DNA of 64,000 nt from Beroe forskalii (taxonomy: Eukaryota; Ctenophora; Nuda; Beroida; Beroidae), in NCBI GenBank assembly GCA_011033025.1, contig WFMF01000010.1, forward strand, positions 963,163 through 1,027,162, written 5' to 3'. The number at the start of each line of letters is the position of its first letter. Position 1 is the stretch's first letter. Positions 9,368-64,000 of the stretch are shown piece after piece. The notes under the pieces were generated by a model. The model was not told the DNA's origin. It did not search any database and saw only the letters and a program-made list of their open reading frames with translations. The position numbers were made by a program, and so were the translations under genes.

Positions 9368-9664
9368 TTAAAAGTGGTATTCTGCTGATCCAGTATCAAT
9401 ATTATCTGTAGATCTGTGATGTCCGGTGATCAACAGCCTGAATGAACGAATTCTCTGATATGGTAGATGCTGCCTTGGTGTTGACTGGGCTGTTTCGGAT
9501 GGTGTGATGGTCCGGAAACTCAGATGGTCAGGATAGTCCCTATAGCTGCTAGTGCTAAGGATCTGCTTCAGATAGTTCAGGGTGGTCCAGGTCAGGTGGA
9601 TGTTTGGCGAGTGTCCCTCTGTCACTGTCACATGAATCACCCTGACAAGAGTGCCAATTATCAT
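9368..9664 (-). other. Possible upstream exon of the Ig gene
   Basis: An open minus-strand stretch just upstream of the CCP module. It follows a plausible acceptor (pyrimidine-rich, then TAG) and contains GTLVRVIHVTVTEG. I see no recognisable domain and could not fix a donor that joins the CCP exon. It may be chance. Confidence 0.2.
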
Positions 9665-27796: not shown

Positions 27797-30700
27797 CTGG
27801 TACACAAATAAAACCATAAATTTGTTCATATATATCGAATACAAATAACATTTAGACATCTTTATACACTTCCAATAAAAACATATTATTGAGATTAAAT
27901 TTAATGCAGTTGTGACGATAAAGATAAACAATTTACACATATATTTACAGTTACTTAATTTACTTCTGGTATAGTTATTGTGTGAAAAGGATCGTGTTAA
28001 TCTGACGTTCTATATTACTGATACTCTGAGGATGATAAATTCATATTATGAGGCCTGCTCATTTATGATAGAGCTGTTGCAGTTTCTAAAAAAACTTGGT
28101 TATTGGTAGGAACTAACTGATTCCCTGACACGCGGCACGCTTCAAGAACTCAGAAGGGTAATGCATTCCACAGGTAGATCACATGTACCAATTTCATCTT
28201 GACACATCCTATCACGTGATCTCATCTTCGCGTACACATCACGTGCAATCACATGTCACACACGTGAATTAGCAGCCCCTTGATCAACCTTGCTTCATAC
28301 GTCACAGTGTTCTTACCCTGAGAGGGGGAGTCACATCATAAAATGTAAGTCATGTCATACTTGGCTAATGTAAACAAAAAGAAATAATTTCACGTCAAAT
28401 TATAATATAAGTCATACCATACATGTGCTTATGGTAAACGAGTGGGGATTATTTTTTGCAACCCACCCCTCACATTCCGTAGCAGCAAACTCACCCAAAA
28501 TTAATATCCGAGTGGGCTGTATTTAGCAACCCACCCTCAAATTTCACTTAAACTCACCCCGTGTTGAGTGGTAGTAGCGAGTGGGGGCTGTATCCTGCAC
28601 TCCACCTGCTTACCATACAGCTCGGCGTGTTCCAGAAACTGTATGCAGTCCTGTAGTACCACATCACGAACCTGGTGTAAATTAGGGAGTAATGTCAACT
28701 AGAAATAACATTGATAGGAGGTCTCACTGAACACAGTGATCTGAAATGTCAAACACCCAAAATCTATATTTTTGTAAATTGTCCCAGAATACCCCGCACC
28801 ATGATAATATTGATTACTGAGTACAACGAACCATGATCATGTGCTTGGCCAGGTTCTCAATGAGACCGAGGAAGCAGCGTTTGGCGTAGTGCCAGGTATC
28901 CATGCCAAGCTTCTTAGAGTAGGGCTCCATCGACTTTATAACACGTGTTATTCCGAACTCAAAGTTACCTGCGATTTGAAAGGGTGTTACCGGCTACTGC
29001 GCAGTGTGTTGAAATATGAGAAAGTGAGCCTTTCTGTGGTTTCTGAACGGCTAAGATGAGTGTCCCGATGGCCGATAATTTCCCACGGGATAGGTAGTGT
29101 CCCTATGATAATACTGACCCTATGATAATACTGACCCTTGGCACAGTAGAGTGTCCCTATGACCAAGTTGACAATACACAGATGATAGATCTTCCTGTCT
29201 GGATCTTCGTATCCCATTTGTTCCTCTTCTTTCTCAATCTTCCTCATCAATTCCTCTGCTTCTTCGTTCTGAAGAAAAACGATTTCAACACGACAACATG
29301 GAAAGTGAGCAAAATTTCCAATACCGGCACAATAAAGAATTGGAAATAATGTAAGTGTCAATATAACGACATGGAAAGTCCACAAGCCAAAACAATGAAA
29401 GCGGTTACCTAGCATTAAAATTACAGCATTAGAACTTCAATGCAAGCATTATATTACTAAGGTTCTCATCAAAATTTAAGAATAAAATAGTATATTCACA
29501 CAAAATCCCTCGAATAGCCAAGTTACCTGACTGGTCATGATGTAGCTAACGCAGAGGTTTGCCAGGACTATTGCACTGACGCTTAGGATATTGTCGTAGT
29601 GCTTTTTAACGATGGGCTCGTAGAATCCAATAGCTTCTTTGTACTTGTTCTCCTGAAACAGATGCAATGAATGCTGTCATTGTGTAAAATCGTGCCATTC
29701 GACAGGAAAAATGTGCCATTTTGGTATTGCAAATTACAAGTTTGATATATAATGCTTACCTACATGCCAAATGAAACATACATCAAACTTACGAAGTAAT
29801 CAAACTTAAACAATCTTATCTTACTATATATAATGCGTGTTGTTAATATATATATATTTATTTATTTATGGCGATTCGTTTTCAAGAAGGCAACAAAATT
29901 CTTTTTTCATCGTGTTGCAAAAACTTTATAATAAATCAGAAAAATAGTATGAGATTTTTTTCGGCCACCCTGAGGGGCGTGGTGGGCCACGCCCTTTTTT
30001 CCGCAAAAATTAAAGTTTCGAATTTTTCCAAAATTCTTTCGCCATCGAGTTGCTTATGATAAATAAAAATTTTGAGAATTTTGTCCGAATTATTGGGTCA
30101 CTCTGAGGAGCGTGGGAGGCCACGCCCTTTTTTTCGTAAAAATTAAACTTTCGAATTTTTTCAAAATTCCTTCGCCATAAAGTTGCCTATGATGAATAAA
30201 AGTTTTGAGAATTTTGTCCGAATTATTGGGCCACCCTAAGGGGCGTGGGAGGCCACGCCCTTTTTTCGAGAAAAAAAATAGATTTTCGAATTTTTTCAAA
30301 ATTCCTTCGCTATGGAGTTGTTGATGATGAGTAAAGGTTTTGAGAATATTGTCGGCAATATTGGGTTAACGTTGGGGGCGTGGGAAGCTTTTTTTCCGCA
30401 GAAATTAAAGTTTCGAATTTCCCCTCCAAACTCGCTCGGTCAAATCACTGTCAAAGGGACACGTGGCCGTTAGCTCATGCGGCTGCCATCATTCGCCGTC
30501 CGTAGGACGGGAACCGACTAGTAGAAATAATTCCCATACCATGTAACCATTAGCTTATCAAGTACTGACCTGCATGAACAGAACATGAGCCACGTTGAGT
30601 TTCCAAGAATCATGTTCGTTACAAAACTCCACACTTTTCCTGAATATCTTCTCCACCATGTTGTAGTTGTTCTTATCCCAGTATATCTTAGCCTGAGGAA

Positions 30701-33700
30701 TCATTCATATCTGGTAATGCGTGAAGGATTTTTGGGCGAAGCCCCAGAAAACCAGAAACCGGGGGTCTGAGATTCTGACAAAAATAATTCTCATTGACCA
30801 TTGTGATAGGATTTTCGCATAGAATTTTGAATTTTGAAAGTTGGGCAAGTTCCACAGATGCCTCAATAAATGGAATGAACTGCCTTTGAAATTGAAGCTG
30901 GAGATCTAAATACTTAACTGCAGTTCAACATGAAAATAATAATGTGAGCATTTGTTCTTGTTGCTGAAGACTATTTTCGTAAGAGTTTTTCAAACATACA
31001 CCTATACACTATTAGCCTATTGATTAGTTATCGTCTCAGTTACAACGTTAGTTTGATATTTATTCTACTCCGATAATTATACATAAGACCCTCAGAAATA
31101 TTGACAGTATCCAAGAAGCCCGACCATTATCACATTGACTGGTCCCTGGACTGGTGTAGATTTTTATACAATATTCATATTGAATGTCTTATTTTTACCC
31201 CAACCCTATCCTGACAACTTGATGAACTCAACTCTAACTCTAACCATTTTAGTTTATAAAATGATAGTCGGGTTTCTTGAATAGTGAAGAAGGATCATTT
31301 CTTTAATCTTTATTCTAGCATGATAGACAGTTTGCTGAGTAATAAAGATTAAACCATTCCTCCGAAATACCACCAACTAAACCTTGTAGTTTTGGTTCAT
31401 CAAAGCGTTTGGCTCATGGTTAAATAGTGTCTATCACCCGAATTTAATGCATTAATCGTGTCAATTGAAAATTCGGCCTGCGGCCTCATTGTTAATTGCA
31501 CTGATAAATTCAAACAATCCGAATGATAAACCCTTTACTCAATACTTCATTAGCAGGTCATTCGATATCAACACTAAATGACTCCGCTTCATCATTATAA
31601 CTCCAAGTCTCAGATCTAGTATGTTACTCCTTTACTATTTACATATTCGCCGAGTTTCCATATCAGCTAAATTAGTGGAGAGCAGCAAGAGGGTTCAAAC
31701 CCTTTCGATACACTTTTCTCCTGCTTTTCAGTTCGCACTGGAATTCAGTGAATCCAGCTTTTATCGAAACCGCTCCAAGTGTATATAATAATGTAACCAC
31801 AGAATATGATACCTCATATGATGAGAAAGCCAATGACGAATGATTGCAGTAATGTTTAGAATAGTTTAATATCACTTCGTTTGACGGTCATTATAGATCA
31901 GTTTGCACATCGCATCGTACCTATGCGAAAAGGGGCATTTGAAAAGTTGTGTTTTTAGTTATTGCTGTAACAGTTCAATGAAGTTCGGCATCATAATCAA
32001 TTGAGTGTTTCATTGACGCGTCTGTGCTACATTTTGAACACTGGGATTTTCTAAAACCAATGCATTGATTGTTGGTGAACCGACACGTTATTCACGGGAT
32101 ATTCTTAAAGAAATAGGTCAACTGAATGAAACATGCCGAGGCCTTGACATTCCTAGTGTGAGAGAAAAATATTATATTATGATTATCGAACTATTTATCA
32201 AAATCTGGTGAATCATAGAAAATTTCATCATTTCATCATAATGGCATCTCTTATCATCGTGTTTCTTTGTACGTCACGCCCCATGGCAACGCGCGCGCAA
32301 TGGGGAAATTGCGTGCAGATGGATAGCGCGCGTCTATTTTCGTTTAATGCTTTGATTTCGGTGCTTCATAACTTTTGATATGATTGGAATTTTTTGATGC
32401 GGTAAAAAATATTTAGCTGATTTGAATTTTGTGGTTTGAAATTTGCGAACGAGGTGCTGCGTAGCAGCGCCGAGTGAGCTGTGTATTTGCAGGCCCAACG
32501 GGCCTGCTAGTCTCTAATATAATTTCGCATTCTCTGTAATATTATTATTATTTTGATCGTCGTAACTCGTAACGTCTTTGGTCCTTTTGTAGACACATTT
32601 TGGGGTGCCCACGTGAAGTATGGATATAGGCGCGCGCGTTGCTATGGTTACATATTGCGCGCGCGTGTTCATTTCTGTTTAATGCTGTTTTGAATACGTT
32701 GATCCGTAACTTTTGATCTGATTTGAATTTTTTGATGCGGTAAATAGTATTTAGTGGATTTGAAATTTGCGAACGAGGTGCTGCGTAGCAGCGCCGAGTG
32801 AGCTGTATATTTGCAGGCCCAACGGGCCTGCCAGTCTTTAATATGAAATAAATTGAGTGTATGGGATTCGTGTCGGCGTGTGTGTGGGACTCTGTGTCTG
32901 TATCATAGATTAGAATGGTAAAACCGTGTGTATGGGCACTCTGTCGATGTGTGTATGGGTTTGTGTCGGCATGCACGTGAAGAGTGCGGAAAGTGCTAGC
33001 TATGGTTACATGCGAAGAGTTTTCATTTCATTTCTTGCTCTGTTGATTTTGTTATGCTACCCCCCTGAAAAGTATGACTTTCGTTCTGCTTTGCATTGCA
33101 TTGGTCGAAACTTGCGAACGAATTGCTGCGGAGCAGCGCCGAGTGAGCTGTATATTAGCAGGTCCAACGGGCCTGCTAGTCTCTTCATAAATCTGTGCAG
33201 ACGTCGGTCGATTTAAATTTATGGTAACGGAAAAATGTGAATTTAGACCAATTCAAGATTAAACACTTAAACAAAAGCAAAATAAAATTGAATCGAATTT
33301 GTGCATAGCACATAGCGTTTTTGGAATACTGCTCTTGGCGTGAATCAATGCTTTAATGCAACGTTCAGTGCGAGTACGTTACTCGGTTTTAGGTTTCAGA
33401 TTTAACTTCATCATATAAGAGCAAATTATAAGTATCAAAACTTTTACGGTCCAGCATTACTAAAAGTAACCATCGAATGATAGTAAATTTTGCTCCTTCA
33501 TAAAATTTTTGAAAGCTTATTATTTGGTCCTATACTATCTAGCAGGCCCAACGGTCGGCTAGCCGGCCGGCCAGCCGGTCGTGTCGGAATAGTTCAAGAC
33601 TGCCGCTTTTGTGTCGGCGTGTGAGTGGGTTATTATTTCGGCATCATAGAATAGAATGGGAAAACCGTGTGTATGGACACTGTTTTGTTGTTTGTATGGG

Positions 33701-36700
33701 ATTCGTCTCGGAATGCACGTGCAGGTTGGGAAAAGTATTTCTGTTGCTATGGTAACATGTGAAGTGAGTGAATTTCATTTCTTTCTTTGTTGGTTTTGGT
33801 GCGCGACTCACTTGAGCCTGCAACATTGGTTCTGTTTCGAATTTTTCGATGCAGTAAAAGTATTACTATGAATTGCAATTGTTGAAATATTCGAACGAGG
33901 TGCTACGAAGCAGAGCCAAGTGAGCTGTGTAATAAGCAGGCCCAACAGGCGCAGGCCCGCTAGTCTACTTTTTTTGGCACACCCGGTAGAAGTCCCACTT
34001 TTTATACCCCAGTTCCAATCTTGAAATCGCACTTCTCCTACTACCCCAGTGCAGTCCCAATCTTGAAGCTTTACTTTTCCTACCCCAATCCCAATCTTGA
34101 AGCCCCACTTTCCCTTCCCTTGTCACAATCTTAAAGCTTTAAAGCCCCACAAACCCTACGCTGCCCCAGTTCAAACATAACTGTCGTATATCTGTCAATT
34201 AATAAACTACCAAAATGGAATTCCCCACCTTTTTGTTTTTTTGTTTTTGCACCTGCTTTGCGTGCTATGCGCGCAAAGAGAGTCAATTACTGAAAATTCC
34301 CCATCAGCACTGCTGACGAGACTGACCACTATTGGAAGGTAAGCTCTTTGGAGACCTTCATGGGACCCATTAGAACACATTCCAACACTAAAACCTTTGT
34401 AAATAATTTTTGCACAGTCTATCTCTATTTTTCTCTTATAAAAGGTAAATTTCAAGGAAATTTTCGTTAAATTGGGCTTAATTTACACTTCTTTTTGATA
34501 TCAAAATTTTTGAGAAAATCCAAGGTTTGGTCTTCCCCCCCCCCAACTCTCCGCACCCCTCAGAATGTCCAGCGCTTTCCGCAGAGACTGTACTCGAGAC
34601 GACGCTATCATCCTAGCAACCAGCACGCTTATCATGCTAGGTGACTCCATAGAGATCTACCTGCCGGGTGTGATAAACCAACATGTAGCCTCGCAGCTGG
34701 GGATAACCTCCCTGGAGGAGGCAATCCTAGACATCTCCTTCTACGTGTGCATGTTCTTTGCTGTGCTGATGGGCATGATGCTCTCAGCACGGTTCAGCAG
34801 CAAGGCGGTACTTTACACCTCCATCCTCAGCTCCAGCACGGTGGTACTGGTGTGTGTCGGACTCCCCAACTACTACACCTTCCTTACGTCACGGGTATTC
34901 TCCGGGCTGTGTGTCGGACTTAACATCAACGTGGCCAGGGTGCTTCTATCCCAGAACGCATCCTCTAAATCTGTAGTGGAGTTCGGAACGTTCGTTACTT
35001 CCATTGTGTTTGCTTTAGGGGGGATATGGGTGGCGCTGGATGCCTGGCTCTTCCTGGACTACGTAGGATGGAGGAACTTCATAGCCATGACATCATTACC
35101 AGTCTTCCTTCCTAGCTTGGTTTTGCTTTACTTCTGTAAGGAAAGCAAGGATGGTGTAAAACAGAGCGAAGAAATGGTAAAAGAAAGTAAAAGTCTAACC
35201 AAGGATGAGGCGGAGCCGACAGAGGATACACCGTTAATGTACATCACCAAAGTACTAAATGTTGCGTTTCTGGACTTCCTCAATAAGTTTGTGGGATACG
35301 GTAGCATCATCCTCTTACCTTCCATCATTGAGACCTTCAACAAAAAGGTCGAAAAAGGGTCAAATAATGATAATAAAGTGGCAGAAAGAAACCAGTTTCT
35401 GATCTTCGCCCTGGGTATAGGAGGAGCTAACCTAGCTGGTAGAGTGATATCATTCTGTTTGAAGGATAGAACGAACTTTAGAATACGACAGGTCATCCTC
35501 ATGTTGGGTATATCCGCGTTTTACGGCATTGTTCTCTTTACCCCACACCAGATAATTATACCTCTCCTGTGCATTGGCCTGGGAAAACTAGCGTACTCCA
35601 TACAGCGGTTTGATCTCTCGCTAAAGAAGTACGGGCTGGATTACTTTGATCCTCAGGCTATGCGCGTAGCCTCCGCCATATCCTCAGCTAGTTCCTACTT
35701 GGGTGCTGCCATAGGGGTCACACTGGCCGCCTTTGTGGAGCCAAAGTGGTCCGTGGTAAGCAGCATAGGCCTGGCTTTGGCAGGCTGTGTGGCAGTGCTG
35801 ACCGGCTTCAAAAACGACGAAAAGTAGTGCAACAACATCATAGTTCTTAATTGGGATTTTAGCTAAAACTATATTATCAGACATCAATGGGCGTATCACG
35901 TATGGTGTCAGACATCAGTGGGCAGTAGACCAATTAACTAGAAATAGGCTATCATGTCAAATCTTTTTAATATTCTCTATCAGATAGTTCAATGATTTAC
36001 CCATAAATCATCCGTGACTCATTTTGTTTTCATAATTTATTAATTTTATTACAGTGATTTATTACAGCGATTTTCAACCTTCATTACACATTCAACTTTA
36101 TCTGTAGCTATAGATAATAATCATTCTGACTTATAATGGATATTAAATTTTGGATATTTCATAGTGAATGTAAATAAAATATAGAGAAATTAATCTTGAT
36201 ATTCTGAGGAACTCTGGTTTAAAATTAACCACAACATACATTTTGTACACTCCTTCCACCCCCAGCCCGGGGGATTACCTGCGCCATTAGGACGGGAATG
36301 TACTTCTCCAGGTGGGGGAGGGGGGGTTACCTGTGCCATTAGGACGGGAATGTACTTCTCCAGCGGGGGGGGGGGGTTACCTGCGCCATTAGGGGGGGGG
36401 GTTACCTGCGCCATTAGGACGGGAATGTACTTCTCCAGCGGGGGGGTTACCTGCGCCATTAGGACGGGGATGTACTTCTCCAGGCTGCATTAGGGGAATG
36501 TACTTCTCCAAAGCGGGGGGGGGTTGCCTGCGCCATTAGGACGGAATCTACTTCTGCAGCAGGGGGGTTACCTGGAGGGTGCCATTAGGACGTGGGACAG
36601 GGAATGTACTTCTCCAGCGGGGGGTGCGCCACCACTTCTCCAGTGGGGGCCATTAGGGGAATGGTCTCAGGGGGTTACCTGCGCCATTAGGACGGGAATG

Positions 36701-39700
36701 TACTTCTCCAGCGGGGGGGGGGGGTTACCTGCGCCATTAGGACGGGAATGTACTTCTCCAGCGGGGGGGGTTACCTGCGCCATTAGGACGGGAATGTACT
36801 TCTCCAGGGGGTATTTACCAGCGCCATTAGGACAGGAATGTACTTCTCCAGCGGGGGGTTACCTGCTGCGCCATTAGGACGGAATGTACTTCTCCAGCGG
36901 GGGGGGGTTACCTGCGCCATTAATGTACTTCTCCAGCAGGGGGGGGGTGTTACCTGCGCCATTACTTCTCAGCGGGGGGGGGGTTACCTGCGCCATTAGG
37001 ACGGGAATGTACTTCTCCGGGGGGGGGTGTTACCTGCGCCATTAGGACGGGAATGTACTTCTCCAGCGGGGGGGGGTTACCTGCGCCATTAGGACGGGAA
37101 TGTACTTCTCCAGCGGGGGGGGGTTACCTGCGCCATTAGGATGTACTTCTCCAGCTTGCGCCTCCTCCAGGGGGGGGGTTACCTGCGCCATTAGGACGGG
37201 GATGTACTTCTCCAGCGGGGGGGGTTACCTGCGCCATTAGGACGGGCCATAGGAATGTACTTCTCCAGCGGGGGGTTACCTGCGCCATTAGGACGGAATG
37301 TACTTCTCCAGCGGGGGGGGTGTTACCTGCGCCATTAGGACGGGAATGTACTTCTCCAGCGGGGGGGGGGGTTACCTGCGCCATTAGGACGGGAATGTAC
37401 TTCTCCAGCCCGGGGGGTTACCTGCGCCATTAGGACTGGAATGTACTTCTCCAGCGGGAGGGGGGGTTACCTGCGCCATTAGGACGGGAATGTACTTCTC
37501 CAGCGGGGGGGGGTTACCTGCGCCATTAGGACGGGAATGTACTTCTCCAGCGGGGGGTGTTACCTGCGCCATTAGGACGGGAATGTACTTCTCCAGCGGG
37601 GGGGGGTGTTACCTGCGCCATTAGGACGGGAATGTACTTCTCCAGCGGGGGGGGGGTGTTACCTGCGCCATTAGGACGGGAATGTACTTCTCCAGCGGGG
37701 GGGTTACCTGCGCCATTAGGACGGGAATACTTCTCAGGAATGTACCTACTTCTCCACTTCTCCCAGCGGGGGGTTACCTGCGCCATTAGGACGGGAATGT
37801 ACTTCTCCAGCGGGGGGGGTTACCTGCGCCATTAGGACGGGAATGTACTTCTCCAGTAGGGGGGGTGTTACCTGCGCCATTAGGACGGGAATGTACTTCT
37901 CCAGCGGGGGGGGTTACCTGCGCCATTAGGACGGGGAATGTACTTCTCCAGCGGGGGGGGGGTTACCTGCGCCATTAGGACGGGAATGTACTTCTCCAGC
38001 GGGGGGGTGTTACCTGCGCCATTAGGACGGGAATGTACTTCTCCAGTGGGGGGGGTTACCTGCGCCATTAGGACGGGAATGTACTTCTCCAGCGGGGGGG
38101 GTTACCTGCGCCATTAGGACGGAATGTACTTCTCCAGCGGGGGGGGGTGTTACCTGCGCCATTAGGACGGGAATGTACTTCTCCAGCGGGGGGGGTTACC
38201 TGCGCCATTAGGACGGGAATGTACTTCTCCAGCGGGGGGGGGTTACCTGCGCCATTAGGACGGGAATGTACTTCTCCAGCGGGGGGGGGCTTACCTGCGC
38301 CATTAGGACGGGAATGTACTTCTCCAGCGGGGGGTTACCTGCGCCATTAGGACGGGAATGTACTTCTCAGCGGGGGGTTACCTGCGCCATTAGGACGGAA
38401 TGTACTTCTTACCTGCGCCATTAGGACGGGAGCGGGGGGGTTATACTTCTCCAGCGGGGGGGGTTACCTGCGCCATTAGGACGGGAATGTACTTCTCCAG
38501 CGGGGGGGTTACCTGCGCCATTAGGACGGGAATGTACTTCTCCAGCGGGGGGTTACCTGCGCCATTAGGACGGGAATGTACTTCTCCTAGTGGGGGGGGG
38601 GGTTACCTGCGCCATTAGGACGGGGAATGTACTTCTCCAGCGGGGGGGAGTTACCTGCGCCATTAGGACGGGAATGTACTTCTCCAGCGGGGGGGGGTTA
38701 CCTGCGCCATTAGGACGGGAATGTACTTCTCCAGCGGGGGGGAGTTACCTGCGCCATTAGGACGGGAATGTACTTCTCCAGCGGGGGGGGGGAGTTACCT
38801 GCGCCATTAGGACGGGAATGTACTTCTCCAGCGGGGGGGGGGAGTTACCTGCGCCATTAGGACGGGAATGTACTTCTCCAGCGGGGGGGGGGGTGTTACC
38901 TGCGCCATTAGGACGGGAATGTACTTCTTCTCCGCCCAGCGCTTCTCAGCGGGGGGGGTTACCTGCGCCATTAGGACGGAATGTACTTCTCCAGTGCGGG
39001 GGGGGGGAGTTACCTGCGCCATTAGGACGGGAATGTACTTCTCCAGCGGGGGGGGGGTTACCTGCGCCATTAGGACGGGAATGTACTTCTCCAGCGGGGG
39101 GGTTACCTGCGCCATTAGGACGGGAATGTACTTCTCCAGCGGGGGTTACCTGCGCCATTAGGACGGGAATGTACTTCTCCAGCGGGGGGGGGGGGTACCT
39201 GCGCCATTAGGACGGGAATGTACTTCTCCAGCGGGGGGGTTACCTGCGCCATTAGGACGGGAATGTACTTCTCCAGCGGGGGGGGGTTACCTGCGCCATT
39301 AGGACGGGAATGTACTTCTCCAGCGGGGGGGGTTACCTGCGCCATTAGGACGGAATGTACTTCTCCAGCGGGGGGGGGGGTTACCTGCGCCATTAGGACG
39401 GGAATGTACTTCTCCAGCGGGGGTACCTGGGGGGGGAATTACCTGCGCCATTAGGACTTCTCAGCAGGGGGGTTAATGCGCCATTAGGACTTCTCCAGCG
39501 GGGGGGGGGTTACCTGCGCCATTAGGACGGGAATGTACTTCTCCAGCGGGGGGGGGTTACCTGCGCCATTAGGACGGGAATGTACTTCTCCAGCGGGGGG
39601 GTTACCTGCGCCAGGGGGGGGGTTACCTGCGCCATTAGGACGGGAATGTACTTCTCCAGCGGGGGGGGTTACCTGCGCCATTAGGACGGAATGTACTTCT

Positions 39701-42700
39701 CCAGCGGGGGGGGTTACCTGCGCCATTAGGACGGGGATGTACTTCTCCAGCGGGGGGGGGTACCTGCGCCATTAGGACGGGAATGTGCTTCTTCTCCAGC
39801 GGGGGGGGGTACCTGCGCCATTAGGACAGGACGGGAATGTACTTCTCCAGCGGGGGGGGGGTACCTGCGCCATTAGGACGGGAATGTACTTCTCCAGGGG
39901 GGGAAGTTACCTGCGCCATTAGGACGGGAATGTACTTCTCCAGCGCCTCGTCGTACTCATTAACGGCCTTCTTAACCGCCTCCTCGTCGTTGTTCTGCCG
40001 GCACTCCTGCACCAGCTTCGTTATCTTGCGGAGGTTATCCGTGTGCCGGTTGGCGATGTCGTCAAACCGTCGGAAGGCCTCTTCCGGAGAGGACTGCTGC
40101 ACGATCACCGCATCCAGGTACTCGTACAGATACGGGTCCATCCTGAGAACATAAATCATACAATGAGCGAAATTAAGTGGGAAATGGCACTCTAAGTGAG
40201 AATAATGGTACTCTAATGAGACTAATGGTACTCTAAGTCAGGGTAATGGTTATCTAAGTGAAGGTTATGGTACTCTAAGTACTGGTACTCTAATTAATGG
40301 GGCTCCGCGTTGTACCCACTTGAAGGTGAGGTGGGTGTTCTCCGCCATGACGTCTGCTGCCTGATCGTAGTACTGGTGTTTAACGTACAGCAGGAGCAGG
40401 TTCCCAAACGTCTCAGGAGGACACTCGCTCTGCTGGAGCAGGAACTGGAGCTTCTCAAAGCCTGCTGTAGGGGCCGAGTCCATGTTCATCAGCGCCTGAG
40501 AGGGCGTGATCAGGACTCCATGTAAGGGTTATATTATGTAAGCGTTAGTCCGTAGTCGGATCAAAGAAAATCCGAATCAATATAAGGAAAATTGTTGGGA
40601 AATTATAAGCCATACCCGAAATATAGCATCTTAGATCATAACAAAGATCATAACAAAGATGTACAGATCTCACAAGCCGCCAATACTCCGTACCGAGCGG
40701 TTTAACAACCTGGTTATGGAGCGTGACACAATCCAGTTCCTCCTCAGCTCTAGGCGGCATGTCAGTGAGCGCCTCCTGCGCCCCCTCGAAGTTCTTCAGC
40801 TGGTACTCTATCGCTGCTTTGAGGTTGAAAGCCTCCACTAGAGCTGTCTCGTGGAGTAGTGCAGAGTTACCAACACTCCTCACATCAATGCCTTCTGTCT
40901 GCATTCCTACAGACAACTCGGGGTGCTCTCTGGGGTTAGGGAGAGGGAGGTTAGTGGGGGTGCTCTCGATCTCTGGGGTTAGGAAGAGGGAGGTTAGTGG
41001 GGGTGTGTTAAATAAAACAAGAGTTCATTTCAAGCCGTTTCAACAAGTTAATGAGTAAATGCGTGCCGCCTGTTCAAGATGATAAGATGTGATTGTATTG
41101 AATTTGAATTACTGACCATGTAAGAGTAAAGGAATCCTTTTAAATCAGGAACATTGTAATTTCGTAATATCTAAGAGGATGTCAGATACTAAAAACTACC
41201 ATATTTTTCACAACGTAAAATTTAAAATAGAGAAGTCGATAATGCAATGGCAATTCCAAGAATTCGTCTTCATAGGTATCACAAGAAACTAAGAAGTAAT
41301 GAAATTTCCCAGAATTTGTTGCTAGATGATTAGAAATAAAATGATACTTTGACTTTACCTAATTCCCCTCTCAATGATATCGGCGATGTTTTTAAGAGCC
41401 AGAGCATACTGCTTCATGTAGTAGTGGCAGAGAGCAATGTTATAGGAGAGATGAGCCTGGTACCCCTTTACATTCATTGCTGCTGTGAACTTCTTACATG
41501 CTTCCATGTATCTCTTCTCTTTCACCAGCAGGCAACCTGTGCAGTAGAAAGTTAGAATACATATTAATGATAATATTCATAATTATAATGTGAGCTATAA
41601 CAGCTGACTGACTGGCCGTAGATTACAAGTACTTGTCCTATTTGAGATTCGAGTCAAGTTACTTTCACACAGGGTGATCGACAACAATAGACTGTTATCG
41701 AGAATACTTTTTTGTCATGAGACAGTGACGTCCAAGTGTCCACTCAGTTTGGATCCAAGATGGCTGAGTGGAGCGGAGGGGGTGTTTCCGACGTGCGCTG
41801 GTAGTGATCCAGCCACCTGCTACATATAATGTGTGGGAAGCGGGTGCCCCTCTGATGCTCGCCTGGCTGCGTGCCGTTGGGCTTGTCCCTCATGCGTGAG
41901 GCATGCGCAGGTCAGGGGATATCATCTCTCCTTCTTCTCTCTCTTCTTCTTCTTCTTCCTCTTCCTACAGTCCCCCCTGAACCCTTCATCATTTCCTCAT
42001 AGAACTCCTCTGCATTATTCACAGCTTCATCGGCTTCTTCTGGTGCTCCAATGCTGCCTCTGCATTGTGTCTTATCCCGTCATATTGTCCGAGTCAGGGA
42101 CTCTTAGAATCTGCACCCTTCAACAGCTTCATTAGCTTCATCTAGCACTCCAACGCTGCCCCTGCATTGTGTTCTGTGTCCTCACTCTGTCCGAGTCAGG
42201 GATTCCTTGCTTTTGCACCCTTCACCCATCAACCCTTCCCCCCACTTTTTTCAGTATTTTGCTCCTCCGTTTTTGCTCCTCCTTGAGGCCGTACTGTTGG
42301 AAATCACACTAGTCCTGTCACTTGCTTCATCCCACTCCTGTATTTATCATCTTATCACACGCTCATCATTATCACCACTTCACCCCCATTAACATACTGA
42401 GCCAGTGTGTGATATTTGTATAACAATGCCTTTGTTATAAATTATATTTGAAAATTCCTTGAAATTCCTTGAGAGTATCTAAGATTTGATAACCTCGATC
42501 ATGTGATGGGGATCACATGATCGCTTCATGATACTGTAGAAACTTGTAAACCAGTCAATTAAATACTTTCAAAGGTAGATATCGAAGGGGGAAATTAATT
42601 CAACAGAATAGCAACCTAGGTTGTTTTCTGTGTCTGGATCATCGCTGGCACACTGCTCCACCATACTCTTAGCACCTTGGAGGTCATCCTCGTCGTACTT

Positions 42701-43443
42701 AATCGCTGCCTATTACAAAACAAGGCGAGAGTTAGCTACTAGAGAGGTTAGTTGAGTACCTGATTCATGTTTGGAGGAAAATTAACTGAGAAGTGTAGTT
42801 CAAGAAATTATTCGACCTATAATTATAATTACATCAAGTTTCACTCCGTTTAATTTAAAAACTTTACTCAACAGACACACAAAGCACCTGAAGCTTGACC
42901 ACTTTATCTTTTTCGGAGGGGTTATCAACAGTATAAGTAGCCTTCATAGCTGCTTCGTACTGACAACTCTTTTGCAACGCTTGTGCATAGTATATCTTGT
43001 ATTGCTCATGTTCAGGGTAAGCCTGGTTGGAGTATGGGACAATCAATAACTTACTTATCAAGGAATTGCAATTAGTATGTTTACCAATAGGAATTCCGAA
43101 TTAGCAACTTTCAATTCATATTAGTGACTCAAATCGTCGCCGTACCCATTTTTTAATAGATGAAAGTTAAAATGCGAACTCTTTAATTCAATGAATTTAT
43201 CTTTGAAACAAGGATGGGGGTATTCTGTACCTGAATGAGTTGACCATAACAGTCTGCAGCACTGATGAAATCTCCGATTTGAAAGTAACAGTAACCTAAC
43301 AATGAGAGAGCAGCCCTGGAGGTGTTGTTGTTCTCATACTCTGGCAGAAGACAATCTATAGCCTCCACATACTGCCCTTGCTTGATGTAGTTGTAAATTG
43401 TCTGAGTGTACTGACCCTCCTCCATGCGACCAACCACAACCAT
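27708..43443 (-). CDS. IFT70: IFT70/TTC30, complete 13-exon gene (left arm copy)
   Basis: Exons: 43231-43443, 42888-43022, 42616-42709, 41359-41536, 40710-40929, 40320-40495, 39911-40142, 30570-30692, 29527-29652, 29136-29268, 28832-28968, 28614-28671 and a tentative last exon 27708-27796. They join in frame throughout to about 637 residues (human 665). It is a TPR protein of the IFT-B complex that moves cargo along ciliary microtubules. Conserved blocks: ALSLLGYCYFQIGDF, VEAFNLKAAIEYQL, PPRAEEELDCVTLHNQ, EKYIPVLMAQ, KIYWDKNNYNMVEKIFRKSV, EAIGFYEPIVKKHYDNI, IYHLCIVNLVIGTLYCAKG. The start follows the family length. Intron 7 is 9.2 kb and contains an MFS gene on the other strand and a minisatellite copied from the exon 7 end. 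A second copy of exons 1-7 is at 61168-63907. Confidence 0.93.
28180..28266. promoter_or_regulatory. E-box cluster, possible SGT1 promoter
   Basis: Three CACGTG (28213, 28240, 28261) and two CACATG (28180, 28250) sit within 87 bp, about 650 bp upstream of the SGT1 start and inside the last intron of IFT70. CACGTG is the site of bHLH-ZIP factors of the USF/MYC/MITF type. The promoter role is inferred from position only. Confidence 0.4.
28439..28612. repeat. Three imperfect 60-bp tandem units
   Basis: Each unit has GAGTGGG, then a T-rich part, GCAACCCACCC and AAACTCACCC. The array lies directly downstream of IFT70 exon 12. Confidence 0.55.
29870..30425. repeat. 131-bp tandem array in IFT70 intron 8
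   Basis: About four copies of a unit near 131 bp. Each has GGGCGTGGGAGGCCACGCCC (a near-palindrome), a T-rich run, TTTCGAATTTTTTCAAAATT and TTGCCTATGATGAATAAAAG. Later copies diverge. Confidence 0.75.
30693..32261. other. Start of the array-distal part of IFT70 intron 7, no gene
   Basis: AT-rich intron sequence. No open frame has recognisable homology. Confidence 0.45.
32262..33963 (+). repeat. R2 hairpin repeat cluster, about five copies
   Basis: Copies end at about 32510, 32834, 33179, 33561 (fragment) and 33963. The fullest (about 32870-33179 and 33605-33963) start with GTGTCGGCGTGTG and ACCGTGTGTATGG blocks. All end in GCGAACGAGGTGCTGCG, the palindrome GCTGCGTAGCAGC, GCCGAGTGAGCTGT, and the hairpin GCAGGCCCAACGGGCCTGC followed by TAGTCT. 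A terminal hairpin followed by CTAG and T recalls a non-autonomous Helitron 3' end, but no 5' TC end was fixed. Two opposite-oriented copies are at 17413-18060. Confidence 0.75.
33985..34170. repeat. Short tandem repeat upstream of the MFS gene
   Basis: Three to four imperfect units of about 46 bp built on CCCAATCTTGAAGCCCCACTT. No coding sense. Confidence 0.6.
34565..35827 (+). CDS. Major facilitator superfamily transporter, intronless, nested in IFT70 intron 7
   Basis: 420 residues with twelve predicted membrane segments. Examples are TM2 SFYVCMFFAVLMGMML, TM4 SRVFSGLCVGLNINVARVLL, TM5 GTFVTSIVFALGGIWVALDA, TM6 WRNFIAMTSLPVFLPSLVLL, and six more after a charged cytoplasmic loop (residues 195-220, rich in K and E). 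The order resembles the SV2/SVOP and SLC22 branch of the MFS. The usual GxLaDrxGRK loop after TM2 is reduced to SARFSSKAVLY. The substrate is unknown. The gene runs against IFT70, and a C-run and CAG lie just before the ATG, so an upstream untranslated exon is possible. It has one exon, unlike IFT70, SGT1 and the Ig gene here, so a retrocopy origin is plausible. Confidence 0.85.
   Translation: MSSAFRRDCTRDDAIILATSTLIMLGDSIEIYLPGVINQHVASQLGITSLEEAILDISFYVCMFFAVLMGMMLSARFSSKAVLYTSILSSSTVVLVCVGLPNYYTFLTSRVFSGLCVGLNINVARVLLSQNASSKSVVEFGTFVTSIVFALGGIWVALDAWLFLDYVGWRNFIAMTSLPVFLPSLVLLYFCKESKDGVKQSEEMVKESKSLTKDEAEPTEDTPLMYITKVLNVAFLDFLNKFVGYGSIILLPSIIETFNKKVEKGSNNDNKVAERNQFLIFALGIGGANLAGRVISFCLKDRTNFRIRQVILMLGISAFYGIVLFTPHQIIIPLLCIGLGKLAYSIQRFDLSLKKYGLDYFDPQAMRVASAISSASSYLGAAIGVTLAAFVEPKWSVVSSIGLALAGCVAVLTGFKNDEK
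35828..36262. other. 3' flank of the MFS gene
   Basis: AT-rich. Possible polyadenylation words (AATAAA at about 36173) follow the stop. A duplicated CAGACATCA-TGGGC word lies at 35879-35925. Confidence 0.4.
36268..39943 (-). repeat. Minisatellite of an exon end plus splice donor (about 75 units)
   Basis: The array continues directly from IFT70 exon 7. Read on the minus strand, each 45-50 bp unit is CTGGAGAAGTACATTCCC, then GTCCTAATGGCGCAG, then GTAAC and a run of 5-11 C. The first part codes LEKYIPVLMAQ, the conserved end of exon 7. CAG|GTAAC is the 5' splice site. So each unit carries a copy of the last 11 codons and the donor. Units vary mainly in C-run length; several are truncated or fused. 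The plus strand shows G-runs every 45-50 bp. The right arm repeats the same array from 63875. Confidence 0.95.
41716..42430. mobile_element. Insertion in IFT70 intron 3, left arm only
   Basis: Intron 3 is 1079 bp here but 325 bp in the right arm; the extra part is roughly these coordinates. It is GC-richer and starts near CCAAGATGGCTGAGTGGAGC, a context typical of retroelement 5' regions. It then has CTTCTTCTTCTTCTTCC and two related TCCGAGTCAGGGA blocks about 120 bp apart. Ends are approximate and no TSD is called. The type is unknown. Confidence 0.55.
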
Positions 43444-43566
43444 CTTTAACAACTTTGCTCAGAGTGTAAAAAACAATTAATATTGAATTGGATACCTATA
43501 TATTTTTAATCTTTTAATGACTTCAAAATTCAATGATAAAATGAAATACATGAGCTCACATTAAAA

Positions 43567-44873
43567 CAAGAATTGCGCCTGCAGGCGCATTTCTTGTGCC
43601 CGTTCTTCCCTTATGCAGGCGCTTAATTTCCTGTTCCCCGGGGCTGGCATTAAAATACGCCGTCATTTGAACTTCGACCACTGTCCGTCTCATGATGAGG
43701 TGACGATAATGCGGCATGCGTTTCTGTATCAAGTGTAACATCATCATCATGAGTCATCGAATCAATTATCAATTTTATAAATATTCCATTCGTGAGTATA
43801 AACTGAACAAAATAATTGCGCTCGTTTTCTATAACCTCGGCGAGCGCTTAGATTTCATGAAACGTACGTGATCACTAGTCGCACGTGCATTTTATTGCGC
43901 GCGCAACACCTGCCATGTTCTGTTTGCGCGCAACACCTGCCATGTTCTGTTTGCGCGCGTACCCATTCATTCTTGGTTGTTTCGTTTTGAGTTTTGTGCG
44001 ACGTCTCGTTCTCACATCAAGCGTTTCCATTGATGACAATAATTATATCACACGAAATGACTTTATTTTCTGTCCTTACAGGTTTCTGTAGTTTGAGTTT
44101 ATGTTGCTCAGATATCACAGTCAGAGCTCACTTTAAAATAAAAAAAAACTTGATCGAGGATTGCTCATGGTGACTATTGATATTCAACCAAGTTTAATGT
44201 TCTTCTTGGGCGTCGAAATTTGTGATTTTATGATCATCTGTGCCAACTTGAACATAACGAGAAAGATTATAAAAAATCTTTCTAGCCAAGGCCCAAGATT
44301 CAGATACCGTAAATTCATGACGTACCGGGACAAATTTTCATTTCTTACTTTCCTCAACACAATTGCTAAAGTCAATCATGATGGATCGTACACAAATTGC
44401 TTCTTGTCAATTGTGTTCTGATTAAAGAAAAAATGTTAATTTAATCAATCAAAATTTGATCAATCAAAATTTGATGGGGAATTTCAAGAAATTCATACAA
44501 CTCTTATCATTGAAAAGTTTGATGAAATTAAAGAATAATGAAGTTTTTGAAAAAGAATCAATGCTTCAACATTAGGATGAACAGAGCATTGAACCAGAAT
44601 ACCTGTATACTAGCAGCTGTAGTGCAGATTGCACAGGATGCCACTACACCAAGCTATATTGGCGCGAGTGATATTATAAAGGAGCAGTTGAATGCTTGAA
44701 AATGGAGCATACGTACATACATACGACCAAAATCGGTCGCGCGCAGCACCACTACCTATTTCAGATTTAACAGTACGCGTAAAGGTAGTATACACACAAC
44801 CCCCACAAAACACGATCTCTGCTAACCTTATCTCAATGCCTTTTTGTAAAACAAAAACGCGATTGGGAACAGG
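43567..44873 (-). mobile_element. R1 repeat, copy 2 (left arm only)
   Basis: Same ends as the copy at 5097-6337. The right arm is empty at the matching place (about 61045-61070), where an A/T run lies between CTCAGAAAA and GATCATGTATTTC. The insertion therefore postdates the split of the two arms. It has an internal 31-bp tandem (GCGCAACACCTGCCATG twice near 43900-43950) and a tRNA-like box A/box B on the minus strand at 44586-44656. Confidence 0.8.
44586..44656 (-). other. tRNA-like sequence inside R1 copy 2
   Basis: AGCTTGGTGTAGTGG (box A) and GGTTCAATGC (box B), equivalent to 6036-6117 of copy 1. A pseudo-promoter of a SINE-like part. Confidence 0.5.
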
Positions 44874-45452
44874 AAAAAATTTCTGAGACAAGAAGAAATT
44901 TATTAATGAGTTAAATCAGAAAACTACATTCTCTTTGTTCTGTCAGTGAATTGATTTTTTAAACTGCTTCAAAACACTGGGACTTCCATGATCATGGTTC
45001 ACATTTAAAATGGTATTCCAATATTCCATGGTGTACCCAATCAGTAAGTGACACTATTTTATAACTAACACCATTATAAAATAATATAGGGCATAGGTAA
45101 CAATACAATCATAAGATCCATATTAATACAATCAGTTCAAAATTAAAGGGCAATCAAGAAAATATTAAAATTATCAAATCTTGTCAATGTGATTCGTCAA
45201 CATGCAGTATACTTCAATGAACATAAATAATTATTGTGGAATTTCAAAAGTCAAAATCACAGCTAAAACATCACTTGACAAATCCAGCACTACATTTAGT
45301 GTAACTACTATCTAAGTATCTACTTTCACAAAATTGTTTTATAAAAGCATGAATTATTCTACTATTGTATGAATAAAAAATCCCCAACTGTGTCAATGAG
45401 CCGAATGTATTCAAAACACCATTTTATTAATTAAATCAATTTCATATTTATG
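44874..45452. other. ALG3-IFT70 intergenic, left arm
   Basis: AT-rich sequence that pairs with 60485-61040 of the right arm. It must hold the ALG3 3' end and the IFT70 promoter, but no specific element can be named. Confidence 0.5.
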
Positions 45453-46634
45453 TCAAACAGTTTTACATTTCTCATCATTATCAGCTACAAGCAGTGAGAT
45501 GACTCCTACAACATGGCAAACTTGCAGTATAGCACTGCTCAATACAGTAGATGGATAAGTATTCCAACAGAGCTCAATACAGCCAAGGATCAACATGATA
45601 ACAGGAGGAGGAAGTTTAGTAGAAAATAATAGAGCAGGCAAAGTATGATAATACCAAACATAAAACTGGTAATGCAAAGATCTTGCACAAGCAATGCCTA
45701 TAAAATTGCTGCTAAATAGAATTAATAGGATTGACTTAGAACTTAGAGGTTTCTTTTCTTTGGACCACTTAGTGAAATACAATGTGAGAATTAAGCCAAT
45801 TTGGATCACTAGGAGGGAAGCATGAAAATATCTAGACAGAAAAATGTTTTCTGGCAAAAATCTATAGTTAACAGTCCATTTGAAGAAAAATTGCCTCCCA
45901 ATATCAAAGGACATTTTCATGTATGCATATGGATTTGTCAGCAAAAATGGGGCACCTAAGACTAACTGTATACCAGCACATAATGATAAACAAATAAATG
46001 TTTTTAAAAGCCCAGTTTCAACAAGCAGAATAAATAATAAACCTGGAGAATAAAGCAATACATTCATCTTTATTGAAACAGCAAAGCTGAAAACTGCACA
46101 TCCCCCTAGCCATTTCTTTTCCAAAAATAGGTAGACTGATAAGTACAGGAACAAAATTGCAACAGGATCATTGAAGAGTCGTAAAGCAAATATTGAATGA
46201 ATACGGTATGATGCAAAAGTAAAAAACAGAAGAACAAATGGAGGTGATGCTTCAGTTTTTCTGTAAATGAGAACAATGAGTAAATAAAAGACTGTGTACA
46301 ATATGGCAAAAAGATATTGGGCCAATTTTATGTTGGATCCTTGATCTGTTATGAAGTGTAGAGCTGAAAACAGGTAGACAAACCCAGCTGGATACACAAG
46401 GGGTCCAGTGTCACCTTTAAGTTGACTGTAGTCAAATGTACCATTCAAAAATCCCCCAACTTCATCCATATAAGCTTTCCAGTCAATTTCTGTGTACCTA
46501 ACCTTTTCAATGATCAGCCCATTAATGAACATTTCAGCAATTAAACATAACAGTCCAACTTTCATCATATGATTTGGATCCAATAACAGCCGCTTTGTGA
46601 AAGAGATTATCCAAGCCATGTTTTCAACAATCAT
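45453..46634 (-). CDS. ALG3: ALG3 mannosyltransferase, left arm copy, intronless
   Basis: 393 residues (human about 438; the N-terminus is shorter). ALG3 transfers the first alpha-1,3-mannose from dolichyl-phosphate-mannose to Man5GlcNAc2-PP-dolichol in the ER lumen. Conserved blocks: VRYTEIDWKAYMDEV (luminal catalytic loop), GDTGPLVYPAGFVYLF, SYRIHSIFALRLFNDPVA, SIKMNVLLYSPGLLF, FDIGRQFFFKWTVNYRFLPE, SNFIGIACARSLHYQFYVWY and WNTYPSTVLSS. Many hydrophobic helices lie between them. The start follows a short leader before the first membrane helix. Vertebrate ALG3 has introns; this one has none. It differs from the right copy at nine residues, all mild except D/G near the C-terminus. Confidence 0.96.
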   Translation of the reverse strand: MIVENMAWIISFTKRLLLDPNHMMKVGLLCLIAEMFINGLIIEKVRYTEIDWKAYMDEVGGFLNGTFDYSQLKGDTGPLVYPAGFVYLFSALHFITDQGSNIKLAQYLFAILYTVFYLLIVLIYRKTEASPPFVLLFFTFASYRIHSIFALRLFNDPVAILFLYLSVYLFLEKKWLGGCAVFSFAVSIKMNVLLYSPGLLFILLVETGLLKTFICLSLCAGIQLVLGAPFLLTNPYAYMKMSFDIGRQFFFKWTVNYRFLPENIFLSRYFHASLLVIQIGLILTLYFTKWSKEKKPLSSKSILLILFSSNFIGIACARSLHYQFYVWYYHTLPALLFSTKLPPPVIMLILGCIELCWNTYPSTVLSSAILQVCHVVGVISLLVADNDEKCKTV

Positions 46635-47207
46635 ATCGAAAAATATCTCTGGATTGATTAACAGTTAATTTACAATAAAATAACTTTTAATGATAGATAT
46701 TTAGAATCCAGCATGAATAACTTGATTACTCAGCAAAGAAATCATGAAAAACACCCCTAAAGCTGGAAGAGGTATCAGACTGATGATGTCTGCACCCCAC
46801 TCATTGTAGTGTGATGAATTTGGACCTTGCTGCTCACCACATGGAATTAAAGATAAAGATAAAGATAAAAATTTTTGCCTTTCGGCAACACAGCTCAAAT
46901 TCCAACTCCTCAACACACTATATCAGTCAGTTATGCACCCCTACAAGGTACTCATAGTAAGACTTAAAAACACTGACATTCAAATTCAATAAAAATAATT
47001 TAAAGTTAATTAGAATAAATTAAAGTAAATAATGAAAATGCAAAATAAGGTCCATATATACACATAAGGATTGAATTAAAACATAGCCAGTAAAGTTCTA
47101 CATTAAAATTATGATGCTATGAAGATTAAAAATGGCAAAAAGGTTCCCTCACCTTGAATGATTTAAAAATGAAAGAAAAGGGATTTAACAACAATAAAAT
47201 AAACCAC

Positions 47208-52800: not shown

Positions 52801-53189
52801 CCCTATTAAGTGATTCAACCATATTTGGGCATTAATTGTTTGAGTGCGCGCGTCGTACGCCGCGCTCTAGGTTGAGAGTCACTCTAGCAGAGATGACCAT
52901 ATTTTGAGATCCTCCAAATCGCGTTGGATAAAGTGATGACGTAGGTCAGGTTTAACAGGCGTTCCTTGAAATAATTGTCAGGTGATACCCATATATGGAA
53001 TAAACTATCTGCTGAGCACTAGAGTGAGGAATGTGTCCGGCTTTCCATAAACAGTTGATGTTTTTACGCAGTTCGTTGCTACTCATTACTTCATTAAATT
53101 ATTTGTTTTGTGTGGCCATCGGCTCTTTCTACTTTTCTAACCGTTTTGATATTTGCTAATTTTGATATTTGCTTGTGAGATGTGACTCT

Positions 53190-56100
53190 GTGGGCCCGGC
53201 TATATCTACCCCATTTGATTATGCTTGCTGCAGGAGACTCTGTTGGCCCGGCTCTATCTACCCCATTTGATTATGCTTGCTGCAGGAGACTCTGTGAGCC
53301 CGGCTCTATTTACTCCATTTGATTATACTTGCTGCAGGAGACTCTGTGTGCCCGGCTCTATCTGCTCCATTTGATTATGCTTGCTGTAGTTGACTCTGTG
53401 TGCCCGGCTCTATCTACTCCATTTGATTATGCTTGCTGTAGTTGACTCTGTGTGCCCGGCTCTATCTACTCCATTTGATTATGCTTGCTGCAGTTGACTC
53501 TGTGGGCCCGGCTCTATCTACCCCATTTGATTATGCTTGCTGCAGGAGACTCTGTGGGCCCGGCTCTATCTACTCCATTTAATTATGCTTGCTGCAGGAG
53601 ACTCTGTGGGCCCGGCTCTGTCTACTCCATTTAATTATGCTTGCTGCAGGAGACTCTGTGTGCCCGGCTCTATCTACTCCATTTAATTATGCTTGCTGCA
53701 GGAGACTCTGTGGGCCCGGCTCTATCTACTCCATTTGATTATGCTTGCTGCAGGAGACTCTGTGGGCCCGGCTCTATCTACTCCATTTGATTATGCTTGC
53801 TGCAAGTGACTCTGTGTGCCCGGCTCTATCTACTCCATTTGATTATGCTTGCTGCAGGAGACTCTGTGGGCCCGGCTCTATCTGCTCCATTTGATTATGC
53901 TTGCTGCAGGAGACTCTGTGGGCCCGGCTCTATCTACTCCATTTGATTATGCTTGCTGCAGGAGACTCTGTGGGCCCGGCTCTATCTACTCCATTTGATT
54001 ATGCTTGCTGCAGGAGACTCTGTGGGCCCGGCTCTATTTACTCCATTTGATTATGCTTGCTGCAGGAGACTCTGTGGGCCCGGCTCTATCTACTCCATTT
54101 GATTATGCTTGCTGCAGGAGACTCTGTGGGCCCGGCTCTATCTACTCCATTTGATTATGCTTGCTGCAGGAGACTCTGTGGGCCCGGCTCTATCTACTCC
54201 ATTTGATTATGCTTGCTGCAGGAGACTCTGTGGGCCCGGCTCTGTCTACTCCATTTGATTATGCTTGCTGCAGGAGACTCTGTGTGCCCGGCTCTATCTA
54301 CTCCATTTGATTATGCTTGCTGCAGGAAACTCTGTGGGCCCGGCTCTATCTACTCCATTTGATTATGCTTGCTGCAGGAGACTCTGTGGGCCCGGCTCTA
54401 TCTACTCCATTTGATTATGCTTGCTGCAGGAGACTCTGTGGGCCCGGCTCTATCTACTCCATTTGATTATGCTTGTTGCAGGAGACTCTGTATGCCCGGC
54501 TCTGTTTCCCGGCTCTATTACTCCATTTGATTATGCTTGCTGCAGGAGAATCTGTGTGGACCCGGCTCTATTACTACCCCATTTGATTATGCTTGCTGCA
54601 GGAGACTCTGTGTGCCCCGCTCTATCTACCCCATTTGATTATGCTTGCTGCAGGAGACTCTGTGGGCCCGGCTCTATCTACTCCATTTGATTATGCTTGC
54701 TGCAGGAGACTCTGTGGGCCCGGCTCTATTTACTGAAAATTTCATTAATGCTTGCAGGAAAGACTCTGTGGGCCCGGCTCTATTTACCCCCATTTGATTA
54801 TGCTTGCTGCAAAATTGACTCTGTGGGCCCGGCTATGATCTAAAACATTTGATTATGCTTGCTGCAGGATCTGTGGGCCCGGCTCTATCTTCCCCATTTG
54901 ATTATGCTTGCTGCAGGTTCTCTATGCTGCTACCCATTTGATTATGCTTGCTGCAGGAGACTCTGTGGGCCCGGCTCTATCTACTCCATTTGATTATGCA
55001 TTTGATTATGCTTTTGCTGCAGGAGACTCTGTGGGCCCGGCTCTATCTACCCATTTGATTTGATTATGCTTGATGCCCGAGAGGTCTTTGATTATGCTTG
55101 CCCAGGAGCTCTGTGGGCCCGGGAATCTACATTTGATTATGCTTGCTGCAGGAGACTCTGTGGGCCCGGCTCTATTATGCTTGCTGCACTCTGTGGGCCC
55201 GGCTCTATCTACTCCATTTTGGGTTCCGCTGCAGGAGACTCTGTGGGCCCGGCTCTATCTACCCCATTTGATTATGCTTGCTGCAGGAGACTCTGGGGGA
55301 CCAAGTGATTTCTGGCTCTTTCTAGTGGATTTGGGGGCCTCAGGGCAGGAGACTCTGTGTGCCCGGCTCTATCTGTTTGATTATGCTTGCTGCAGGATGA
55401 CTCTGTGGGCCCGGCTCTATCTACCCCATTTGATTATGCTTGCTGCAGGTGACTCTGTGGAGACTCTATCTACCCATTTGATTATGCTTGCTATCTGTGT
55501 GCCCGGCTCTATCTACCATTTGATTATGCTTGCTGCAGGAGAATCTGAAACTGTGGGCCCTTGCTCTATCTTTGTCCATTTGATTATGCTTGCTGCAGGA
55601 AACTCTGTGGGCCCGGCTCTATCTACCCCATTTGATTATGCTTGCTTTCAGGAAATGGCCCGGCTCTATCTACTCCCATTTGATTATGCTTGGCAGGGAC
55701 TCTGTGGGCCCGGCTCTATCTACCCCATTTGATTATGCTGCTTGCTGCAGGAGATTCTGTGTGCAGGAGCCTGGCTCTATCTAATCCATTTGATTATGCT
55801 TGCTGCAGGTGACTCTGTGGGCCCGGCTCTATCTACCCCATTTGATTATGCTTGCTGCAGGTGACTCTGTGTGCCCGACTCTATCTACCCCATTTGATTA
55901 TGCTTAATGCTGCAGGAGAATCTGTGTGCCCGGCTCTGTCTAGTCCATTTAATTATATGCTTGCTGCAGGAGAATCTGTGGGCCCGGCTCTATTTACTCC
56001 ATTTGATTATGCTTGCTGCAGGACTCTCTGTGTGCCCGGCTCTATCTACTCCATTTGATTTTGCTTGGTGCAGCAGGTGGCTCTGTGATTATGCCCGGCT

Positions 56101-59152: not shown

Positions 59153-59302
59153 CATCAGTCTGATACCTCCCTCAGCTTTAGGGTGTTTTTCATGATTTCT
59201 TTGCTGAGTAATCAAGTTATTCTTGCTGGATTCTAAAAATCTATCATTAAAAGTTATTCTATTGTAAATTAACTGTTAATTAATCCACAGATATTTTTAG
59301 AT

Positions 59303-63907: not shown

Positions 63908-64000
63908 GTAACCCCCCCCACTGGAGAAGTACATTCCCGTCCTAATGGCGCAGGTAACCCCCCCCCCCGCTGGAGAAGTACATTCCCGTCCTAATGGCGC
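63875..64000 (+). repeat. Start of the splice-donor minisatellite, right arm
   Basis: The exonic first unit (63875-63907, ending GCGCAG|GTAAC) is followed at once by two further copies of CTGGAGAAGTACATTCCC ... GCGCAG separated by C-runs. The third reaches the window edge. Same phase and unit as 36268-39943. Confidence 0.93.

Follow-up and report, generated by a model that had tools for sequence, protein, structure and literature searches.

At the boundary of exon 7 and intron 7 of an IFT70 gene lies a minisatellite of about 75 units, which repeats the end of the coding exon together with its 5' splice site (donor). The gene is encoded on the minus strand of the window, by which we mean the whole 64,000-nucleotide (nt) stretch of contig WFMF01000010.1 analysed here, and the array occupies positions 36269-39946. 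In amphioxus, tandem repeats that span a boundary between exon and intron are called 'mirages' (PMC3087553). We read the IFT70 locus as a very large minisatellite of the mirage type that would be of mutational origin, would need no function and would be spliced out silently with intron 7; we put the probability of this reading at about 0.8. The array would be tolerated because its extra copies fall in the intron.

Exon 7 ends at position 39911, reading ..LEKYIPVLMAQ/gtaac (a slash marks the splice boundary throughout). Its final 34 nt (39911-39944) form the exonic part of unit one and end at the genuine donor, whose GT is at 39910-39909. Regular units, of about 46 nt and with the sense sequence GCTGGAGAAGTACATTCCCGTCCTAATGGCGCAG/GTAAC(C)n, are likewise made up of these 34 nt of exon, the donor and the start of the intron, and the repeat straddles the boundary. 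Between 40000 and 36000 the sense strand carries 75 CAGGTA sites, the genuine donor counted, 66 of which read CAGGTAAC. Measured from donor to donor there are 74 units; 61 are 42-52 nt long and 13 fall outside this range, the length is divisible by 3 in 20 of 74, and the commonest length is 46 nt (14/74, and 8/37 in the second array described below). An uninterrupted C-run of 5-12 follows GTA(A) in 55 of the 71 units measured, while in the remaining 16 another base intervenes and the run counts as 1. Unit numbers and C-run lengths are those of the assembly, and the 13 irregular units may partly be consensus errors. Tandem Repeats Finder scores inside the array reach 1774, far above chance. The distal junction, GTAATCCCCCGGGCTGG (36262-36278, minus strand), holds the final donor, followed by an intronic GCTGG, the same five letters as in the exon at 39940-39944. 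The initial annotation of this DNA had proposed a minisatellite of some 75 units, composed of the exon 7 end, the donor and a C-run and starting within the exon, with the genuine donor as unit one. The 74 donor-to-donor units past the genuine donor and the exon end at 39911 bear this out, and its limits of 36268-39943 were nearly right.

Exons 1-7 of this copy (copy 1) lie at 39911-43443 on the minus strand, with the start codon at 43443. Exon 8 (AKIYWDKNN) starts at 30692, and exons 8 onward run on the same strand to ∼ 28249, leaving an intron 7 of ∼ 9.2 kb between 39911 and 30692. The 649-residue protein joined without any array sequence matches IFT70 in PDB 8bd7_C, which we take to be the Chlamydomonas protein, over residues 7 to 645 (E 7.7e-246), and the alignment runs unbroken across the join of exons 7 and 8.

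A second donor array, absent from the initial annotation, is found in an inverted duplicate of the gene and runs from 63873 to 65634 on the plus strand (63873-64000 within the window). Coordinates beyond 64000 continue the window numbering, such that 65634 is position 3634 of the neighbouring stretch L004. The duplication is partial and interrupted by insertions: its left arm (31572-46797) pairs with a right arm at 59142-74567, of which 59142-64000 lies in the window. Copy 2 of IFT70 comprises exons 1-7 (61168-63907, plus strand) and encodes a protein identical to that of copy 1. Exons 8 onward were not found beside it, and the genome search, in which only the best candidates were scored, showed a single copy of them. 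Between the two sides no further inverted homology longer than 400 bp was detected in the 222 kb examined. The second array has 36 CAGGTA sites, the genuine donor counted, and 37 donor-to-donor units against 74 in copy 1, a comparison that may be one of paralogues or of alleles; all 37 are 42-50 nt long and none is irregular. Whole-genome searches covered an assembly of 216 Mb in 1134 contigs, which by its size and genes is probably that of an animal. The unit core (at most two mismatches) gave at least 37 forward and at least 54 reverse matches, and the matches listed all lie at the two IFT70 loci. Five aligned flanking segments of the arms differ by 1.4-4.9%. The divergence is patchy, from 0 to 11% per 200 aligned columns, and in a separate alignment the values for single introns lie between ∼ 1% and 18%, with the maximum in intron 3, which has a large insertion in copy 1.

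As assembled, only the first donor yields a productive message. When exon 7 plus k units of copy 1 is joined to exon 8, the product keeps the frame and meets no stop for k = 0 alone. Among the 76 AGGT[A/G] sites of this copy, 52 give a shifted frame with a stop, 22 keep the frame but meet a stop, one is shifted and one is open; a separate count of 75 donors again found the first alone productive. In copy 2, which lacks its own exon 8, the productive donor is likewise the first (1/38). The initial annotation had suggested that downstream donors would add in-frame repeats; for the assembled sequence we reject such length isoforms, since no later donor gives an open in-frame message in either copy. 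Should the assembled C-runs be wrong, short in-frame isoforms may exist: when copy 1 units were resampled to take account of errors in the C-runs, messages that included 1, 2, 3 and 10 units were productive in 27%, 16%, 10% and 0.1% of draws, respectively.

Donor strength gives little ground for preferring the first site. Predicted pairing with U1 is -8.0 kcal/mol at 66 of the 76 array sites (genuine donor included), -8.1 at two, -11.0 at two, -7.1 at five and -5.5 at one. The dozens of near-identical donors described in the initial annotation are present, most of them pairing with U1 as well as the genuine one does. Other IFT70 donors pair at -4.0 to -7.2 kcal/mol (exons 1-6) and at -7.8 to -9.4 kcal/mol (three later donors). 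Because the array strengths are mostly equal, we infer that donor choice rests on position and exon context. In the transcript the array would form the initial 3.6 kb of the 9.2-kb intron 7 and be removed along with it, the context of exon 7 itself and the order of synthesis favouring donor 1. If donor 1 is used the gene reads normally, since both original flanks are preserved, that of the exon by the exon-proximal unit and that of the intron by the last one. Splicing from a later donor would, as assembled, always shift the frame or run into a stop, and the resulting messages would be lost to nonsense-mediated decay.

The two GCTGG motifs suggest how the array may have been born. This 5-mer opens the exonic part of the unit (39944-39940) and recurs 12 nt inside the intron (36266-36262). 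We propose that a 46-nt segment, from the GCTGG of exon 7 to the intronic GCTGG, was tandemly duplicated at this 5-bp microhomology; a duplication between the two sites would account for a first unit of 46 nt. One unit of the 74, at 37421, still reads CCGGGCTGGAG, the junction predicted for the first duplication. Slippage or unequal exchange would then have enlarged the array, the intronic GTAATCCCCCGG part of the unit turning into GTAAC and a C-run. Both arrays end in the same junction, GTAATCCCCCGGGCTGGGGG, although in copy 2 the CAG before it reads CGG, a change found in 2/37 units of that copy. Distinct unit sequences number 56 among 75 pieces in copy 1 and 34 among 38 in copy 2, of which the two copies have only 4/86 in common (5/62 once C-runs are collapsed). 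Copy 2 also has substitution subfamilies, GGCGAAG and CTTATGG, that are absent from the regular units of copy 1. As the distal junction is shared, few units are shared and the flanks are only 1.4-4.9% apart, the arrays probably predate the separation of the arms and have been rewritten since, which points to fast turnover. Some consensus error is likely in copy 1, given that the differences are mostly insertions or deletions and that 13 units are irregular. Exact block duplications of at least two unit strings were found in neither array (shuffle means 0.97 for copy 1 and 0.016 for copy 2). Nor was any signal of selection on the donors within units detected: the 61 regular units of copy 1 carry rare substitutions throughout, the first base excepted. 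Expansion driven by hairpins was rejected as an explanation, 201 nt of the G-rich strand folding no better than shuffles (z 0.75; this test does not cover G-quadruplexes).

In its anatomy the array resembles the amphioxus mirages in Adh3, the globins BflGb6 and BflGb9, TnC and PGBD5, as described in two reports (PMC3087553, PMC3902484). There too, the units contain AG/GT signals, 5' as well as 3' boundaries are affected and turnover occurs within clusters; in amphioxus, copy number varies between haplotypes or assemblies. For the globins, mirages were found at donor and acceptor boundaries, with unit numbers differing between haplotypes, and reverse-transcription PCR suggested no interference with splicing (PMC3087553); the later report adds PGBD5 to the mirage genes, cites Adh and TnC, and likewise reports that no aberrant mRNAs are produced (PMC3902484). 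The IFT70 array differs in having more units than the mirages of BflGb6 and PGBD5 (2-7), in the long C-run of its unit and in its presence on an inverted gene duplicate as well. The initial annotation knew of no described case of a coding-exon/donor minisatellite of this size; as a kind, boundary-spanning minisatellites are described in the amphioxus mirages (PMC3087553, PMC3902484). A boundary-spanning array of this size was not found in our survey of the literature, which was mostly superficial. The Rogers model of intron gain (cited in PMC3087553) likewise starts from a coding segment that contains an AG/GT and is duplicated in tandem. Here, however, unique intron 7 sequence runs for kilobases past the repeats and no new exon is proposed between them; we rejected intron gain by tandem genomic duplication, since the array sits within one intron of ∼ 9.2 kb. 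Internal repeats of human duplicated genes likewise include minisatellites that alter exon-intron structure, some of them at boundaries, with an average of four 30-bp units (PMC2812944), whereas the ∼ 75 units at IFT70 predict no change in exon structure.

Several points weigh against a silent mirage. Silent splicing is deduced from the DNA, the identity with the lancelet repeats is one of anatomy only, and the relic junction CCGGGCTGGAG is known from a single unit. As 70/76 array sites (genuine included) pair with U1 no less strongly than the genuine donor, its silent use is unexplained by donor strength. The amphioxus globin paper itself states that many mirage units could act as cryptic sites (PMC3087553), and in human segmental duplications 66% of the intron modifications by boundary repeats are accompanied by a transcript in which the repeat stays in the exon (PMC2812944). 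The account also leaves unexplained the absence of nonsynonymous differences in copy 2, to which we return below. The array could alternatively act as a source of length isoforms or a buffer of splicing, in which downstream donors would add in-frame LEKYIPVLMAQ repeats. In favour of this, its donors are mostly equal in predicted U1 pairing, 20/74 units have lengths divisible by 3, inclusion of one resampled unit was productive in 27% of draws, and human boundary repeats often give rise to alternative transcripts (PMC2812944). Against this, neither copy as assembled has a productive donor beyond the first, the protein is collinear with PDB 8bd7_C over the join without an insert, and the amphioxus mirages are reported not to yield aberrant mRNAs (PMC3087553, PMC3902484). 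We consider such a role very improbable.

We also weighed whether the assembler inflated a few true units to 75. C-runs are error-prone in long reads, and irregular units make up 13/74 in copy 1 versus 0/37 in copy 2. On the other hand, the second array has substitution subfamilies of its own (GGCGAAG, CTTATGG), neither the window nor L004 or L005 contains any N, the contig carries many other arrays and IFT70 exons 1-7 are intact in both copies; an artefact of this kind is very unlikely. The units could alternatively serve as recursive splice (ratchet) points, CAG/GTA acting as acceptor and donor and intron 7 being removed stepwise. CAG and GTA are juxtaposed in most units with a CTAAT upstream, and splicing onto a unit would regenerate a like donor and leave the message unchanged. 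By inspection, however, the CTAAT lies only ∼ 8 nt from the AG, with no long pyrimidine tract just before the AG, and a step of 46 nt would be very short. We found no literature on recursive splicing at minisatellite tandem splice sites, to which we attach little weight. The ratchet is, in our judgement, a most improbable explanation, and the silently spliced mirage is the reading that we retain.

Stranger than the array itself is the inverted partner, on which purifying selection has acted. Over the 1248 coding nt of exons 1-7 the two copies show 27 differences, all of them synonymous, where the sites total 261 synonymous and 987 nonsynonymous. Under even mutation this outcome has a probability of ∼ 4e-19, and it is on account of this figure that we regard the lineages separating the copies as having been under strong selection, although the genome search showed exons 8 onward in one copy only. 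Three readings are offered. Copy 2 may be the other allele, put in the wrong place by the assembler; the arms may be alleles of an inversion, between which 5' halves are swapped; or copy 2 may be kept alike by gene conversion or make a useful truncated product. We speculate, while giving the idea only a small chance, that the two inverted copies, each with the 5' flank, exons 1-7 and an array, are interchangeable 5' halves of one gene, where recombination in intron 7 or the array flips the segment onto the single set of 3' exons and the mirage arrays form a recombination hot spot. With one 5' half connected at a time, a flip between the arms would keep both halves under selection.

The contig is rich in minisatellites, with 104 array clusters covering 34.5 kb of the 222 kb of contig sequence. 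Besides the IFT70 arrays we found two further boundary-spanning ones in these 222 kb, where the boundaries were read partly, and by eye; of the 314 boundary-spanning open reading frames (ORFs), two of five joined strings were read, with frames of at least 34 residues from number 191 on. A donor-type array on the plus strand (132020-132775, extended coordinates) has ∼ 21 copies of a 35-bp unit that repeats the ORF end ..ILEIAMKLLNQ with AAG/GTAAGC. It is probably a boundary array unrelated to that of IFT70, on an exon-like ORF that gave no match in Pfam or PDB. By eye, an insertion interrupts this array, with one more unit beyond. The second, also on the plus strand (161689-161861, extended), is an acceptor array in which three copies of a 57-bp unit repeat the acceptor and exon start of an ESRP orthologue. 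The exon is an RRM exon and matches ESRP1 (PDB 7wrn_A, E 5.2e-19); it is provisional, the query peptide spanning two frames over a 1-nt assembly jump after the repeated part. Thus, donor boundaries (IFT70) and acceptor boundaries (ESRP) are both affected on one contig. Arrays with donor-like words at 90573-91807, 101913-102369 and 96546-97039, among others, had no convincing exon at their edge by eye and were not counted. A claim that arrays are enriched at exon boundaries was dropped, since at their density a degree of overlap would arise in any case.

In the two amphioxus reports (PMC3087553, PMC3902484) mirages come from a handful of lancelet genes, all cases being cephalochordate; if the host of the present DNA is not a lancelet, they are more widespread than those reports state. 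To these cases the IFT70 locus adds a very long mirage that may still bear the scar of its birth, together with a second copy in which turnover can be seen and other boundary arrays elsewhere on the contig. How the spliceosome selects the first among ∼ 75 mostly equal donors could be tested here in a natural setting. The locus may equally test whether minisatellites that cross into coding exons survive only if they carry a splice site: for arrays that start in an exon we would expect this, as only then are the extra copies intronic.

Within intron 7, and antisense to IFT70, lies a gene for a transporter of the MFS family (34565-35828, plus strand; the start codon was set by comparison with copy 2). 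It matches Pfam MFS_1 over 34577-35828 (E 1.5e-17) and is open in both arms of the duplication, with some amino-acid differences. Just outside the copy 2 MFS gene, L004 carries at ∼ 8100-9900 (plus strand) what by eye appears to be a degraded retrotransposon, with a YADD-coding stretch at ∼ 8820. The spacer between the inverted arms contains another large minisatellite (53184-57384, ∼ 80 copies of 52 bp), and no exon was seen by eye at its upstream edge. Further along IFT70 itself, a double copy of 17 bp at 29101-29138 (minus strand) contains the donor that follows ..TLYCAKG, so that GG/GTCAGT occurs twice; this may be another mirage, of two units.

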